DNA of 64,000 nt from Vibrio furnissii CIP 102972 (GTDB taxonomy: Bacteria; Pseudomonadota; Gammaproteobacteria; Enterobacterales; Vibrionaceae): positions 1-64,000 of the forward strand of contig NZ_ACZP01000019.1 of NCBI RefSeq assembly GCF_000176175.1. Reading direction: 5' to 3'. This document shows positions 40,938-49,161 of this stretch, piece after piece (the stretch's first letter is position 1; the number at the start of each line of letters is the position of its first letter). Below the pieces are notes generated by a model. It had not been told where the DNA came from. It did not search any database and worked only from the letters and a program-made list of their open reading frames with translations. The position numbers and the translations under genes were made by a program.

Positions 40938-41070
40938 GATTCGACTGCCTAAAGTGTTGTGTTTGTATCTTGTTGGTTAGCGGGAGGAATCTCCGCCATT
41001 TAGAGTAGTTCTTGAACATACCGCAATGTTTTTGACAGGCAAAGTACTATTTTGTTTTCGATCAAAAAAC

Positions 41071-41098
41071 AAAGCCCGACTCCAGAGAGTCGGGCTTT
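41071..41098 (-). terminator. terminator of glyQS
   Basis: AAAGCCCGACT and AGTCGGGCTTT form an 11-bp stem. On the minus strand it is followed by GTTTTTT, 25 bp after the glyS stop codon. Confidence 0.88.
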
Positions 41099-41123
41099 GA
41101 ACAAACCAAGTCGAAGAACGACG

Positions 41124-43190
41124 TTATTTCTGCAACAGGGAGATATCCGCGATTTGCAGGAACAGGTTACGCAGGTTATTCAGCAGCGTCAGACGGTTTT
41201 TCTTCAGCGCTTCATCATCGGCCATGACCATCACGTTGTCGAAGAACGCATCGACCGGTTCACGCAGACCCGCCAGTTGGCTCAGAGCCTGCTGGTAGTT
41301 GCCAGTAGCAAATGCCGGTTCCAGAGCTTCAGTCATCACTTCGACCGCTTCTGCCAACGCTTTTTCTGCGTCTTCTTGTAGCAGCGCCAAGTCAATCTCT
41401 TGCGCCAGCTCGCCGTCGAATTTCGCCAGGATGTTACCCACACGTTTATTCGCCGCTGCCAACGCTTCGGCCGCATCAAGGTCACGGAAGTGCGACACCG
41501 CTTTCACACGGCGGTCAAAGTCAGCCGGTTTGGTTGGGTGACGTGCCAACACCGCTTGAATGATGTCCACGCTGAAGCCTTCGTCTTGGTACCAAGCACG
41601 GAAACGGCCCAGCATGAATTCAATCACGTCTTGCTCAACATTGTCGTTGCTCAGGCGATCACCAAACAGTGATTTCGCTTTGGCGACAAGGTCGACCAAA
41701 TCCAGGTTGTAACCGTATTCCACGATGATACGCAGTACACCCAGTGATGCACGGCGCAGGGCAAACGGGTCACTGCCTTTCGGCGCTTGGCCAATACCAA
41801 AGATACCCACGATGGTGTCCAGTTTGTCTGCCATCGCGACAGCGGCAGACACGCCATTGGTTGGCAGGCTGTCGCCAGCGAAACGTGGCATGTACTGCTC
41901 GTTCAGTGCCACAGCCACTTCTTCGGCTTCACCGTCGTGGCGGGCGTAGTGCATGCCCATCACACCTTGGGTATCGGTAAATTCGAACACCATGGATGTC
42001 ATGAGGTCACACTTGGCCAGCAGACCAGCTCGTTTGGATTTCTCGACATCGGCACCGATTTGCTCAGCAATGTAACCTGCAAGCTCGGTGATACGGTCGG
42101 TTTTGTCTTTGATGGTGCCCAGTTTTTGCTGGAAAATTGCCGTTTCTAGCTGAGGCAGGCGATCAACCAGTTTGCTCTTCAGGTCGGTGTTGAAGAAGAA
42201 CTCGGCGTCAGCCAGACGTGGGCGAACCACTTTCTCGTTCCCTTCAATAACATGGCGAGGCTCTTTGGACTCGATGTTGGACACGAAGATGAAGTTAGGC
42301 AGCAGGTGCTTGTTGGCGTCGTAAACTGGGAAGTATTTCTGGTCACCTTTCATGGTGTACACCAGGGCTTCCGCTGGCACTTTGAGGAATTTCTCTTCAA
42401 ATTTCGCCGTCAGGACCACTGGGAATTCAACCAACGAGGTCACTTCTTCAACCAGATCGTCTTCCAGATCGGCGATGCCGCCCAGTTCTGCAGCCGCTTT
42501 TTGGGCGCCGTCGATGATCATCGCTTTACGGGTTTCGTAATCGGCAATCACTTTACCGCGCTCTAGCAGGATCGCAGGGTACTGCGCTGCCGAATCGATG
42601 GTGAATTCAGGTTCACCCATGAAGCGGTGGCCACGGATGATGCGGCCTGATTTCACGCCGAGAATTTCGCCGTCAATCAGGGTGTCGCCAAACAGAATGG
42701 TCAGGGTTTTGACCGGACGGATGAATTGCGTTTCTTTATCGCCCCAACGCATCGGTTTGGCGATCGGCAGATGAGCCAGTGCTTTGGCAGCCATGTCGAC
42801 AACCACGGCAGCGGTGTCTTGGCCTTTCACTTGCTCTTTAAACAGCAGCCATTCACCTTTGTCGGTGACGAGGCGTTCAGCTTGCTCAACGGTAATGCCG
42901 TTGCCGCGTGCCCAGCCTTGTGCTGCTTTGGTTGGGTTGCCGTCGGCATCAAACGCGACGCTGACCGCTGGACCCCGTTTTTCAACCACTTTGTCCGGTT
43001 GACCTTCTGCCAAGTTGGCCACTTTCAGTGCCAGACGACGTGGGGTGGCGTACCAAGTCACGCCATCGTGTGCGATGCCCGCATTGTTCAGTTCTGCAGT
43101 AAAGTTTGCTGCAAACGCTTCTGCCAGTGTACGCAGTTGTTTTGGCGGCAGCTCTTCCGTACCCAGCTCAATCAAAAATTCTTTTGCCAT
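41124..43190 (-). CDS. glyS: glycine--tRNA ligase beta subunit
   Basis: The 688-aa beta subunit of the tetrameric bacterial glycyl-tRNA synthetase recognises tRNA-Gly. It starts with [19 protein letters not shown] and has the HD-like domain ([20 protein letters not shown]) and a C-terminal anticodon-binding DALR-type region. The ATG at 43190 is preferred over the in-frame 43229, which would overlap glyQ. It follows glyQ by 14 bp. Confidence 0.97.
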
Positions 43191-44122: not shown

Positions 44123-44337
44123 AGTCAGGTTCGCGCGATTCTTCTGTCTGAATTGATAAAAAATAACGATCAAGTATACCGAGTTATTCCCCGACAAAGT
44201 AGAGGAAATCTTGCTTAATTAATCGGCGAAATTCTCTTTTCATGGAGTTTTTTGCCTTTAAGCTGCGCAAATTTCCTCGTGTTGACGCTTTTCGTCATCT
44301 TGGGGTTGAGAAATGTGCCGAGGCTGGATAGAATTCC

Positions 44338-44466
44338 CCCGTCTTTGGGGAGTAGCTTCTCGATCAAATGTCCTCATTTGATCGGTTCGTTCGTCAACAC
44401 AATTGGTGCACAATCACCATGGCGTTCGAGACTCGGTGCCGACCGGGTTTAGCAAGACCTTAGACA
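44338..44466 (+). promoter_or_regulatory. yybP-ykoY manganese riboswitch
   Basis: The leader of mneA has the conserved 5' segment TTTGGGGAGTAGC (44344-44356) and the 3' segment AGCAAGACC (44451-44459), with variable hairpins between. These are the two invariant strands of the yybP-ykoY aptamer that binds Mn2+. GTCT at 44341-44344 can pair with AGAC at 44462-44465 as the outer P1 helix. Position before a Mn exporter gene fits established biology of this class. Confidence 0.88.
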
Positions 44467-44529
44467 AACATCACGAACCGGGGTGGGGCGTGTCTGTTTG
44501 TCTATGGTTATATAATTATCCCTGCCCCA
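44461..44529 (+). promoter_or_regulatory. probable expression platform of the riboswitch
   Basis: TAGACAAACA (44461-44470) and TGTTTGTCTA (44495-44504) form a perfect 10-bp inverted repeat that reuses the 3' strand of P1, so the two helices are mutually exclusive. A further pairing TGGGGC (44484-44489) with GCCCCA (44524-44529) reaches within 12 bp of the mneA start. There is no T-run, suggesting translational control. Confidence 0.55.
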
Positions 44530-44540
44530 ATGAGCAAGTC

Positions 44541-45095
44541 GTGAGCGTTTTAGCTATCTCTATTACTACTGTTGCACTGGCCGAAATCGGGGATAAAACC
44601 CAGCTTTTGTCGTTATTACTCGCCAGTCGATACCGTAAACCGATCCCTATTATTGCTGCTATCTTTCTGGCAACGATTGCCAACCATGCTTTGGCGGCGT
44701 GGCTTGGGGTGGTCGTGGCCGATTATCTGTCGCCTGAGGTGTTGAAATGGGTGCTGGTGGTGAGCTTTTTGGCGATGGCCGCCTGGGTACTGATTCCCGA
44801 TAAAATCGATGATGACGAAGAGATTTCCAATCGGGGACCGTTTGTGGCCAGCTTCATTGCCTTCTTTGTGGCGGAAATTGGCGACAAAACGCAAATTGCG
44901 ACCTCCATTTTGGGCGCGCAATACGCCGATGCATTGTCGTGGGTGGTTCTGGGCACCACCATCGGTATGCTGCTGGCAAACGTGCCCGTGGTGCTGATCG
45001 GTAAATTATCGGCCGACAAAATGCCACTGGGTCTGATTCGGAAAGTGACTGCGGCGCTGTTTGCGGCATTGGCCGTGGGCGCGGCGGTGTTCTAA
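44541..45095 (+). CDS. mneA: manganese exporter of the UPF0016/GDT1 family (MneA)
   Basis: The 184-aa inner-membrane protein has two homologous halves of about three helices, each with the family motif: AEIGDKTQLLSLLLASRY near residue 13 and AEIGDKTQIATSILGAQY near residue 110. It closely resembles V. cholerae MneA, which exports Mn2+. The start is taken as GTG 44541, giving the family N-terminus (VLAISITTVALAE). Extension upstream would run through the riboswitch. Mn2+ binding to the leader RNA should turn on expression. Confidence 0.92.
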   Translation: MSVLAISITTVALAEIGDKTQLLSLLLASRYRKPIPIIAAIFLATIANHALAAWLGVVVADYLSPEVLKWVLVVSFLAMAAWVLIPDKIDDDEEISNRGPFVASFIAFFVAEIGDKTQIATSILGAQYADALSWVVLGTTIGMLLANVPVVLIGKLSADKMPLGLIRKVTAALFAALAVGAAVF

Positions 45096-46207: not shown

Positions 46208-47704
46208 TTAACCAAGGGACAGTTCATCGCCCGGCCTCGAGACGTCGTCATAGATAATGCGGTTACGGCCGCTGCGTTTGGCCTCATATAAGCGCGCATC
46301 GGCAAGGGCGATGGCATCAGCATCGGCGCAGGAGGCGAGCCCTGCACTGAACGTCACTTGGTGCGGGCCTTGATGCCACTGGTATTGCGCGATGCTCAGG
46401 CGCAGTTGCTCCAACATCTCCAGCGCTTGCGATGGGGTCACGCGCACAAACACAATGACGAACTCTTCGCCGCCGTAGCGATAAATGCGCGTACTTTGCG
46501 GGGGGAGTTGTGCCTCGGCAATCGCGGCAAATGTTTTGAGTACGGTGTCGCCGGTCTGATGGCCATAGGTATCATTGATGGACTTGAAATAATCGATGTC
46601 CAACATCGCCACGAGCGTTGCCCCATCCTCGATGAGCGATGGCAGGTCGTTGTCCAGCGCGCGTCGATTGTTCAGGCCGGTTAAGCCGTCGATCAAACTC
46701 TCTTTCCTCAACGTGTTGCGTCGCTCAGAAAGCAAGTGAATGGCGTCGGCGATATTCAGATTGCCGGGCACCGGCGTAGCTTTCATTAAGCCGGTCACGA
46801 GATGCTTTTCGACCTGCTGGATTCTTCTTCTCATATACAGCCAGCACAGGGTGTTGATTGTCAGTGAGAAGGTCAGAAAATAGACAATGCTTTTGCTCTC
46901 ATGAAACACAAAGCGGTTTAAGCTGCGTTTGGGCACTTCGTAGATCACATACCATTCCGGATTGGAGAGGTTGGAATAGTAATAAAAGGCGCAATGGCCC
47001 TCATGAATGCCGGAATAGGCCGTGAGATCCGCGGCGGTGAGCGATGCGGCTGGGGGAATGCCCGCAATCAAGGTGCCTTCGGTGTCACTCAAGGACAAGC
47101 GTCCGCTGGAGGGGCCTTGAATGGTCTGAAAAAAGTGGGTGATCAAGGATGGGCGAATCGATAACGCAATCATGCCTTTGGGTTTTAAGGCCTGAGAATA
47201 AATCGGCAAAGAGACGTGAATGGCATGACCGCCTACGTCACTCGCGCGCGTGGAAAAGCTAAACTGCGCAGGCGAGCCATACGAGATGACCTTTTTAAAC
47301 CACGGCTGCTGCTGAGGCGCGTCATTGTGCGGGGCGGCGGCGTTGGGTAACGCTGCCGTCATGAAGGTTTGCCCCTGTAGATCGCTAACCGTGATCGATT
47401 CGACATACGGTAATAAATGCAATGCATCTTGCATTTTCGCGTGGTGATGGCTGTTTGGGTCGGGGATCAACGTCTCGCGCAATTGGGTGGTGATCAGCAC
47501 TTGATTGAGATTTTTTTCGTAGATCGACAGTTTGCGCGCGGTGGTTCGGCTCAAGTCGAGGACGAAATCGAGATTCAAGTTGTGGTAAGAATCGACAATC
47601 ACTGCACGCTGAATCCAATAGGCACTGATGCCGCCGATAATGAGTATTGAGGTCATCAACCCAAAGAGTTTGTTCACCTTAGTGGAAATGCTTAAGTGTT
47701 TCAT
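46208..47704 (-). CDS. membrane diguanylate cyclase (second gene of the pair)
   Basis: The 498-aa protein has a transmembrane helix (about 14-33), a large periplasmic Cache-like sensor domain, a second helix (about 272-290) and a GGDEF domain (about 335-490). The active-site motif is GGEEF at 411-415, with metal-binding D369/D371 region (MLDIDYFKSIND), so it should make cyclic di-GMP. The RxxD inhibitory site expected just upstream is absent (STRIYRYGGEEF). Its ATG overlaps the stop of the upstream cyclase gene (ATGA). Confidence 0.9.
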   Translation of the reverse strand: MKHLSISTKVNKLFGLMTSILIIGGISAYWIQRAVIVDSYHNLNLDFVLDLSRTTARKLSIYEKNLNQVLITTQLRETLIPDPNSHHHAKMQDALHLLPYVESITVSDLQGQTFMTAALPNAAAPHNDAPQQQPWFKKVISYGSPAQFSFSTRASDVGGHAIHVSLPIYSQALKPKGMIALSIRPSLITHFFQTIQGPSSGRLSLSDTEGTLIAGIPPAASLTAADLTAYSGIHEGHCAFYYYSNLSNPEWYVIYEVPKRSLNRFVFHESKSIVYFLTFSLTINTLCWLYMRRRIQQVEKHLVTGLMKATPVPGNLNIADAIHLLSERRNTLRKESLIDGLTGLNNRRALDNDLPSLIEDGATLVAMLDIDYFKSINDTYGHQTGDTVLKTFAAIAEAQLPPQSTRIYRYGGEEFVIVFVRVTPSQALEMLEQLRLSIAQYQWHQGPHQVTFSAGLASCADADAIALADARLYEAKRSGRNRIIYDDVSRPGDELSLG

Positions 47705-49161
47705 GATTGCGCGCTCGGGGTTATCGCCGACCCGTTAATGTTGTTTTTGCCGGACTGTTTCGCGTGATAGAGCAATTGGTCCACCGCCGAGAGAAATTCG
47801 GGGAGTGTTTCGCCATCCCATGATTTGAGGCCGGCGCTAAACGTAATGCTGGGCATGCCTTCACGCCATGCACGTGAGGCAAATGAGTGGCGGAAATTGT
47901 CCAACAAAGCGTGCGCGCGTGCGGCGCTGATGCCTCTGAACAGAATGGCGAACTCCTCTCCACCATAGCGATAACTGCGCACCTGAATGTGATCAAAATA
48001 GCTTTTGGCCATGGCGGCAAACGCACGTAAAACGTCATCGCCGCACTGGTGGCCAAAGGTGTCGTTGATGCGTTTGAAGTTATCAATATCGATCAGCGCC
48101 AGCAACGTCCCCCCTTCATCAGACAGGGCGCTGGCGAGGTCTTTGTCAAAGGCGCGGCGATTGAGGGCGCCAGTCAGTTCATCGAGCAACACACGGCTGG
48201 CCATCAGATCTGCGGCTTTATGGCTGTCATTGATGGTGGTGTCGACGAATTTATCAATCGATTGATTGTTGTCGTTGAGTTTTCGAATCACGTGGAAATA
48301 AAACAGCTTTAATTCTTCACACAGACTCCACCAAAAAAAACACAGCAGCGAAAGAGTGATCCCGACGACCACAAACAGAATGAGGCTCTCTTTGAACAGT
48401 GAACTGGTGAGTACGTCACCGTCCACGGCCATGATGATCGTCCAGTTGAGGTGATTTAATCGACTGTAATAGATTTTTTTGTGCTGTTGGTGATCAAAAT
48501 ACGCGCCGTCCTCACCGAGTTGGGTTTGGCTTAAGTCGAACAGGGCATTTTTGCTGCCCCAAACCACGGCACCGGCGTTATCGACGACATACACATTGGT
48601 GGGTATGGTTTCTTGCATTTTGTCGAACAAGACATTCAGCCGCGCGGGCACGATATCAATCCCGATCACCGCGTAATGGGATGGCTCGTTAAAGATCACT
48701 TTGGAGAGCGTGGCGATACGTTCTTGAGAAAATTTATCCACGTAGAGATTGGTGTATTTAATCTGCTGATGATTTTCTGTGGGATCAATAAACCAAGGCC
48801 TGGACGCATGAGCATATATTTTATTGCGATTGATGATGGGTGCGTTGCCAAGCATTTTTTCTTTATCACTAATATATATCGCTGACGCCATGGGAATTAA
48901 ATCCAAATAAAACAACAGCAATTCATTTAAATGAATGGCATTGTCTGTTGGGCCATATTTTGATTCCAATAAATGAATCATGACCTCAAGTTTCATTTCA
49001 ATGTTAGAAAAAACATGTTCAACTTCAACTTTATAATCATTCAGCATTCGATGGGAAATATCATCATAAATACGTTGTTGATGATGCCATTGAAATAAGC
49101 TGGACGTCACACCAACCGTCACGGTCAGGACAAGTAGACTTAGAAAAAATCTGCTCTTCAT
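47701..49161 (-). CDS. membrane diguanylate cyclase with dCache-like sensor (first gene of the pair)
   Basis: The 486-aa protein has the same layout as its neighbour: helix 5-23, periplasmic dCache-like domain (about 30-250, with RPWFIDPTENHQ and TNLYVDKFSQ), helix 258-278 and a GGDEF domain (about 325-480) with GGEEF at 400-404. It too lacks RxxD. The domain type usually binds small amines, amino acids or carboxylates. It is translationally coupled to the next gene by a 4-bp overlap. Both probably arose by duplication and diverged mainly in the sensor. Confidence 0.9.
   Translation of the reverse strand: MKSRFFLSLLVLTVTVGVTSSLFQWHHQQRIYDDISHRMLNDYKVEVEHVFSNIEMKLEVMIHLLESKYGPTDNAIHLNELLLFYLDLIPMASAIYISDKEKMLGNAPIINRNKIYAHASRPWFIDPTENHQQIKYTNLYVDKFSQERIATLSKVIFNEPSHYAVIGIDIVPARLNVLFDKMQETIPTNVYVVDNAGAVVWGSKNALFDLSQTQLGEDGAYFDHQQHKKIYYSRLNHLNWTIIMAVDGDVLTSSLFKESLILFVVVGITLSLLCFFWWSLCEELKLFYFHVIRKLNDNNQSIDKFVDTTINDSHKAADLMASRVLLDELTGALNRRAFDKDLASALSDEGGTLLALIDIDNFKRINDTFGHQCGDDVLRAFAAMAKSYFDHIQVRSYRYGGEEFAILFRGISAARAHALLDNFRHSFASRAWREGMPSITFSAGLKSWDGETLPEFLSAVDQLLYHAKQSGKNNINGSAITPSAQS

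Follow-up and report, generated by a model that had tools for sequence, protein, structure and literature searches.

How does a manganese riboswitch act on its gene when no transcription terminator is found between the two? The leader of mneA in Vibrio furnissii CIP 102972 raises this question, and we have examined it within a 64,000-nucleotide stretch of contig NZ_ACZP01000019.1 (hereafter the window, whose numbering is used throughout) from a genome of 4.96 Mb. The mneA gene, located on the plus strand at 44541-45095, starts with GTG and encodes a 184-aa exporter of the GDT1 family (PF01169, E 3.2e-41), the closest named relatives of which, among the best 80 of 582 protein matches, are from Vibrio species at no more than 91% identity. 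The mneA and terC leaders of V. parahaemolyticus share the aptamer, the exporter gene downstream and the induction by manganese, but the available passages of that report do not mention an expression platform and do not settle how the leaders act (PMC13274385), whereas a platform is proposed here. Neither the riboswitch nor its gene or ligand is new, and the riboswitch class is itself established; what appears to be new lies at the level of the expression platform, which begins beyond the end of the Rfam match.

The manganese aptamer upstream of mneA

A covariance-model search of the window returned a match to RF00080 on the plus strand at 44335-44450 (46.2 bits, E 4.3e-10), a score that passes the gathering score of 45, although only just. 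Both the GGGGAGUAG and the UCAACA loop sequences typical of the family are present in the model alignment, and the RNA precedes a cation exporter gene, as is expected of RF00080. Judged by its sequence, the RNA is a genuine member of the yybP-ykoY manganese riboswitch class, as the original prediction had it, and the two aptamer strands named there were found at the anticipated positions (GGGGAGTAGC at 44347-44356 and AGCAAGACC at 44451-44459). Matches to RF00080 occur in 167 of 197 genomes of Vibrionaceae. The aptamer loop at 44391-44402 reads TCAACACAA in the window and TCAACATAA in most Vibrionaceae, and a further variant, TCAACACAC, was seen in 10 leaders from other families, a count taken from the first match of a loose pattern that includes some other sites.

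The match stops at 44450, short of the 3' strand of the P1 helix and of everything that follows. In order to examine this part of the leader, 168 Vibrionaceae rows including the window (119 leaders were fetched from among the better matches listed) were reduced to 101 distinct leaders for an alignment (A1); the remaining tests were run on 124 distinct leaders drawn from the same rows. Outside Vibrionaceae, 55 loci from the best 80 of 582 matches gave 39 leaders, 13 having no recognisable aptamer end and three no alignable start. P1 joins GUCUU at 44341-44345 to AAGAC at 44454-44458. Of the 124 Vibrionaceae leaders, 124, 109 and 124 keep the three inner pairs, and only 65 and 53 keep the two outer ones; in the other Proteobacteria the five pairs are kept in 25, 17, 37, 25 and 22 of the 39. 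P1 is short and, outside Vibrionaceae, also poor (17 to 37 of 39 per pair).

The original prediction also let TTCCCC, thought to lie at 44335-44340, pair with the GGGGA of the aptamer. The hexamer is located at 44334-44339. Because it sits at the end of a promoter-like site on the plus strand (TTGAGA from 44306, a 17-nt spacer and TAGAAT to 44334; 10 of 12 consensus positions), the RNA probably starts near 44341, and TTCCCC would be outside the transcript. The site itself is a consensus match only, with one found against 0.5 expected in shuffles. Inspection of 28 leaders by eye revealed no conservation of TTCCCC or its pairing with the aptamer, and the idea was dropped.

A stable hairpin whose foot overlaps P1

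Immediately downstream of P1, TAGACAAACA at 44461-44470 is perfectly complementary to TGTTTGTCTA at 44495-44504, 24 bases further on, exactly as originally described. These strands form the main part of a hairpin, P5, which continues inward with an inner stem (CACG at 44472-44475 with CGUG at 44489-44492) and, in the minimum free energy structure, outward with a four-base-pair foot between GACC at 44456-44459 and GGUU at 44506-44509. The segment 44454-44512 folds at -28.2 kcal/mol compared with -13.3 (sd 2.7) for shuffled versions, a z-score of -5.5. Across the 101 aligned leaders, 88.5% of cells in P5 and its foot are paired and double changes occur in 11 of 18 pairs, including support for the inner stem, the 3' strand and GGUU, and the foot pairs are kept in 86 to 94 leaders. 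By a loose pattern search, 109 of 124 Vibrionaceae leaders and 33 of the 39 others have, somewhere in their tail, a GGUY able to pair with GACC.

A structure competing with P1 had been foreseen, and one exists, but the 10-bp repeat is not the competing part. It was said to share AGAC with P1, and it begins only at 44461, past the P1 3' strand at 44454-44458. Only the foot, which had gone unnamed, overlaps P1.

A pairing between the hairpin loop and the stretch before the Shine-Dalgarno sequence

The loop of P5 contains GGGGUGGGG at 44480-44488, which is complementary to CCCUGCCCC at 44520-44528, upstream of the Shine-Dalgarno (SD) sequence and separated from the hairpin foot by an A/U-rich linker (44510-44519; 3-15 nt in relatives). 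In alignment A1, 95.5% of the cells of this 9-bp helix are kept as pairs. There are 23 double-change cells compared with 3.7 in shuffles, a level that none of 500 shuffles reached, and double changes fall in six of the nine pairs, which 10 of 500 shuffles equalled; kinship among the sequences inflates such counts. Sliding the register by one to three columns leaves just 56-76% of cells paired, and P5, foot and loop helix taken as one structure beat 500 of 500 shuffles. The original prediction had noticed part of this pairing as TGGGGC (44484-44489) with GCCCCA (44524-44529). Both strands exist; nevertheless, that 6-bp register is inferior, since 88.5% of its cells are kept and, although its 14 double-change cells (6.5 in shuffles) were reached in none of 500 shuffles, only two pairs carry double changes against 2.5 in shuffles.

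When tails were shuffled, 109 of 124 Vibrionaceae leaders reached p<=0.05 for a helix from hairpin apex to tail. Among the 15 that missed is V. breoganii (L049), in which the hairpin was misfolded and AGGUGGGGA/UCCCCACCU is evident by eye. Comparing the duplex energy of each loop strand with its own and with foreign 3' strands gave little contrast within Vibrionaceae (a median of 0.37 of foreign partners were equal or better) because all of the strands are G- or C-rich. Hairpin and loop pairing formed together constitute an H-type pseudoknot. On comparative sequence evidence the loop-to-pre-SD pairing is well supported, and we infer that it and the hairpin occur in the same molecule.

The pairing extends beyond Vibrionaceae

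Each of the 39 leaders from GDT1 genes of other Proteobacteria has a helix of 6-12 bp (G-U allowed) from the hairpin apex to the pre-start tail, which reached p<=0.05 against shuffled tails in 31 and missed in eight. Here the pairing recurs with different letters and the own-versus-foreign contrast is clear: in 35 of 39 the leader's own 3' strand pairs better than foreign 3' strands do on average (Wilcoxon p 2e-7). A search across the phylum gave RF00080 matches in 62 of 200 genomes. In its 30 best-scoring loci, a sample that is not random and of which 28 were readable, a test that requires no start codon gave a helix of -14 kcal/mol or lower in 26 of 28, with 14 at p<=0.05 and 22 at p<=0.1; some of these loci are from relatives of the 39 leaders, and the helix GGGGCGGG is common to both sets. 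An earlier version covering phylum loci and ten other loci gave 17 of 29 at p<=0.05, with wrong starts chosen for several.

The pairing is not universal among these riboswitches. No good helix was found at L262 (5 bp, p 0.57) or L268 (p 0.27) in the start-free test, nor at L227 in the test with chosen starts, and inspection by eye did not find the element in the E. coli alx leader. The genes that follow the phylum loci include GDT1 (L245, L249) and MntP (L266), and a Vibrionaceae locus with the pairing (L009) precedes a Na/Ca exchanger gene. This variety indicates that the pairing is associated with the riboswitch rather than with any single gene.

Position relative to the ribosome-binding site

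The original prediction called the SD weak, and it reads as a mere GAG at 44532-44534, conserved in position in alignment A1, in which the start column of mneA is GTG, ATG or TTG. The 9-bp helix of the window ends three bases upstream of GAG. Placement could be counted for 123 of the 124 Vibrionaceae leaders and 35 of the 39 others. In Vibrionaceae, the distance from the end of the pre-SD strand to the start codon is 12-13 nt in 98 leaders and that to the SD duplex is 0-4 nt in 116, and overlap with the SD duplex of at least 2 nt was seen in none of the 123 and in three of the 35. In riboswitches that sequester the SD the switching helix covers it, which is not the case here; going by these sequences, a helix that so regularly abuts the SD but leaves it free departs from the usual way of sequestering an SD. 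Instead, in its layout the leader resembles an activator pseudoknot, with a conserved helix from a hairpin loop to the stretch before the SD. We liken it to repZ of IncI-type plasmids, where a pseudoknot just upstream of the SD activates translation; repZ has no ligand and is an unrelated RNA. In such a position next to the SD, a helix might equally well hinder ribosomes or give them access.

When the window tail is folded alone, opening the ribosome-binding site costs 10.9 kcal/mol, and 4.8 kcal/mol once the C-rich strand is occupied. The drop averages 2.5 kcal/mol in Vibrionaceae and 2.0 elsewhere, and it exceeds 2 kcal/mol in 69 of the 124 Vibrionaceae leaders and 14 of the 39 others; blocking of any strand would contribute to such values by lowering structure.

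Two further candidate devices near the start codon were considered. A four-codon open reading frame, ATGAGCAAGTCGTGA, at 44530-44544 overlaps the GTG of mneA (GTGA), and it was rejected as a device as its ATG is missing in many relatives in A1. Long-range pairing of the C-rich strand with the GGGGAU codons of the EIGD motif, as an OFF helix, can be drawn in the window; because the GGG codon is found in only 31 of 136 distinct Vibrionaceae genes, it is not a conserved device.

A proposed manganese-ON mechanism and its alternatives

No intrinsic-terminator-like site was detected on the plus strand between 44200 and 44620, whether overlapping P1, as in terminating yybP-ykoY platforms, or elsewhere, in keeping with the original remark that a terminator T-run is absent. 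Translational control remains the better guess, and the loop-to-pre-SD pairing, by its sequence record, probably helps to switch the gene. Taken as a whole, the original reading holds in placing a manganese riboswitch ahead of mneA, in describing a competing helix and in noting that a terminator is absent, and it gives way on which part competes, on the register of the second pairing and on TTCCCC.

How might manganese be coupled to the pairing? By an A-form estimate based on linker length, made for 103 of the Vibrionaceae and 22 of the other leaders, the pseudoknot fits over the hairpin in 125 of 125 when the foot is open. With the foot closed it would be impossible in 11 of the 22 leaders outside Vibrionaceae and in four of the 103 within. 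Where this holds, foot and pseudoknot exclude each other, and the pseudoknot should therefore go with P1 and hence with the manganese-bound aptamer. In most Vibrionaceae, however, the modelled linker is long enough for both to coexist, and as the 10-nt linker of the window would itself just reach, exclusion cannot be claimed for the window sequence. Since the exporter is induced by manganese, a pseudoknot that goes with P1 is more likely the ON than the OFF state.

We propose that without manganese the GACC of the P1 3' strand would be captured by GGUU, closing the foot of P5, and the hairpin would extend to a rod of approximately 20 bp with a short tail. With manganese, the docked aptamer would hold P1 and release GGUU, so that the rod would shorten to approximately 14-15 bp and the tail would grow to approximately 16 nt; the P5 loop could then pair with the strand adjoining the SD, and the pseudoknot would present the ribosome-binding site. 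The manganese dependence of each state and the assignment of the pseudoknot to the ON state are inferred, and the direction, ON or OFF, is less well supported than the pairing itself. For the complete chain, a manganese-ON riboswitch most likely acting on mneA translation through a pseudoknot, we consider the case evenly balanced. More tentatively, and a little short of even, many proteobacterial manganese riboswitches may share one translational platform, in which the foot competes with P1, the loop forms a pseudoknot against the SD, and manganese turns the gene ON by allowing the pseudoknot and not by uncovering the SD.

The alternative that deserves most weight, although we think it unlikely, reverses the sign: the loop-to-pre-SD helix would be an OFF road-block against the SD, weakened when P1 forms with manganese. 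A stable helix ending 0-4 nt before the SD duplex could hinder binding of the 30S subunit, the linkers of most Vibrionaceae permit foot and pseudoknot together, and the yjdF riboswitch, in the passages available, has a predicted OFF-state H-type pseudoknot, albeit onto the SD itself (PMC9142559). However, we found no route by which P1 would destabilise the helix, which P1 should instead favour in leaders with short linkers, and the SD itself is hardly ever covered.

Alternatively, manganese might act mainly on the transcript level, through Rho-dependent termination or leader decay that is relieved when manganese alters the structure near the C-rich strand. The effect of manganese on mneA of V. 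parahaemolyticus was seen as a rise in RNA (PMC13274385), and coupling to Rho is described for the mntP riboswitch of E. coli (PMC11647493). Nevertheless, the RNA-seq coverage in the former study did not fall off at the riboswitch, whether manganese was present or not (PMC13274385), the fixed distance from pre-SD strand to start codon points to initiation, and effects of Rho may be secondary to translation, which together make such an output improbable. Even less probable, and only barely so, is that there is no pseudoknot and that loop strand and pre-SD strand form a plain hairpin replacing P5 in an ordinary two-state switch. Covariation backs the pairing without telling whether P5 exists alongside it; against this, P5 is very stable and covaries with the loop strand inside it, and the linker without the foot was long enough for a pseudoknot in every measured leader.

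Comparison with known riboswitches

Returning to the proposed manganese-ON pseudoknot, one parallel, for its switch helix, is the yybP-ykoY riboswitch of Lactococcus lactis, in which, in the passages available, P1.1 is a switch helix stabilised by manganese that competes with a downstream structure and turns the gene ON (PMC11087558). The competitor there is a transcription terminator (PMC11087558), whereas in the mneA leader it carries the pre-SD pseudoknot strand and no terminator was found. The mntP riboswitch of E. coli is translational and manganese-ON according to the accessible portion of that paper (PMC11647493). On visual inspection, its leader shows CCAUA/UAUGG in the foot of the hairpin and CUGGGG/CCCCGG ahead of the SD, and it differs in its longer, branched hairpin; the automated helix test gave p 0.69, with the wrong start picked. 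As excerpted, yjdF is likewise a translational ON switch with an H-type pseudoknot in its model, but that pseudoknot is the predicted OFF state, pairs with the SD itself and belongs to another aptamer (PMC9142559). In the open-licence literature searched (titles, beginnings of abstracts and some passages), a pre-SD pseudoknot of manganese riboswitches was not found reported. Within a riboswitch class that is very abundant, a pairing that covaries and is so precisely placed can be targeted directly by mutation, and if the pseudoknot does activate translation, not block it, an uncommon mode of riboswitch output would be added.

Variant aptamers and other features of the window

The same genome has a second, variant aptamer (L002/L270; contig C12, 762229-762519, minus strand) that scores 37.3 bits, under the cut-off, and in which UUUAAGGGAGUAGC and CAACAGUCUCC replace CAACAUACUUGG. 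A DNA search found it in 10 of 99 genomes of the genus, its own included. It is followed by CGACAGGC/GCCUGUCG ahead of an SD and a three-codon open reading frame, ATGCGCTGCTAA, and then by a Na/Ca exchanger gene. At two other loci (L278:628-1461 and L280:1657-2490) the same variant lies directly upstream of a full BacA/UppP gene (PF02673, E 2.3e-77 for L278; L280 is alike by eye), and at L275 a seemingly decayed remnant stands ahead of the exchanger gene. We did not expect a metal-type riboswitch upstream of a gene for an undecaprenyl-pyrophosphate phosphatase.

Elsewhere in the window, weak matches to RF02278 (25 bits, cut-off 50) and RF02837 (19.4 bits, cut-off 49.5) on the minus strand at 41066-41152 coincide with what looks like a terminator hairpin and its T run, located at the 3' end of an open reading frame that resembles glyS by eye, and are probably due to chance. 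Downstream of mneA, two adjacent open reading frames on the minus strand (46208-47704 and 47701-49161) overlap by four bases, and because both carry a GGEEF motif by eye, they probably encode two tandem diguanylate cyclases.
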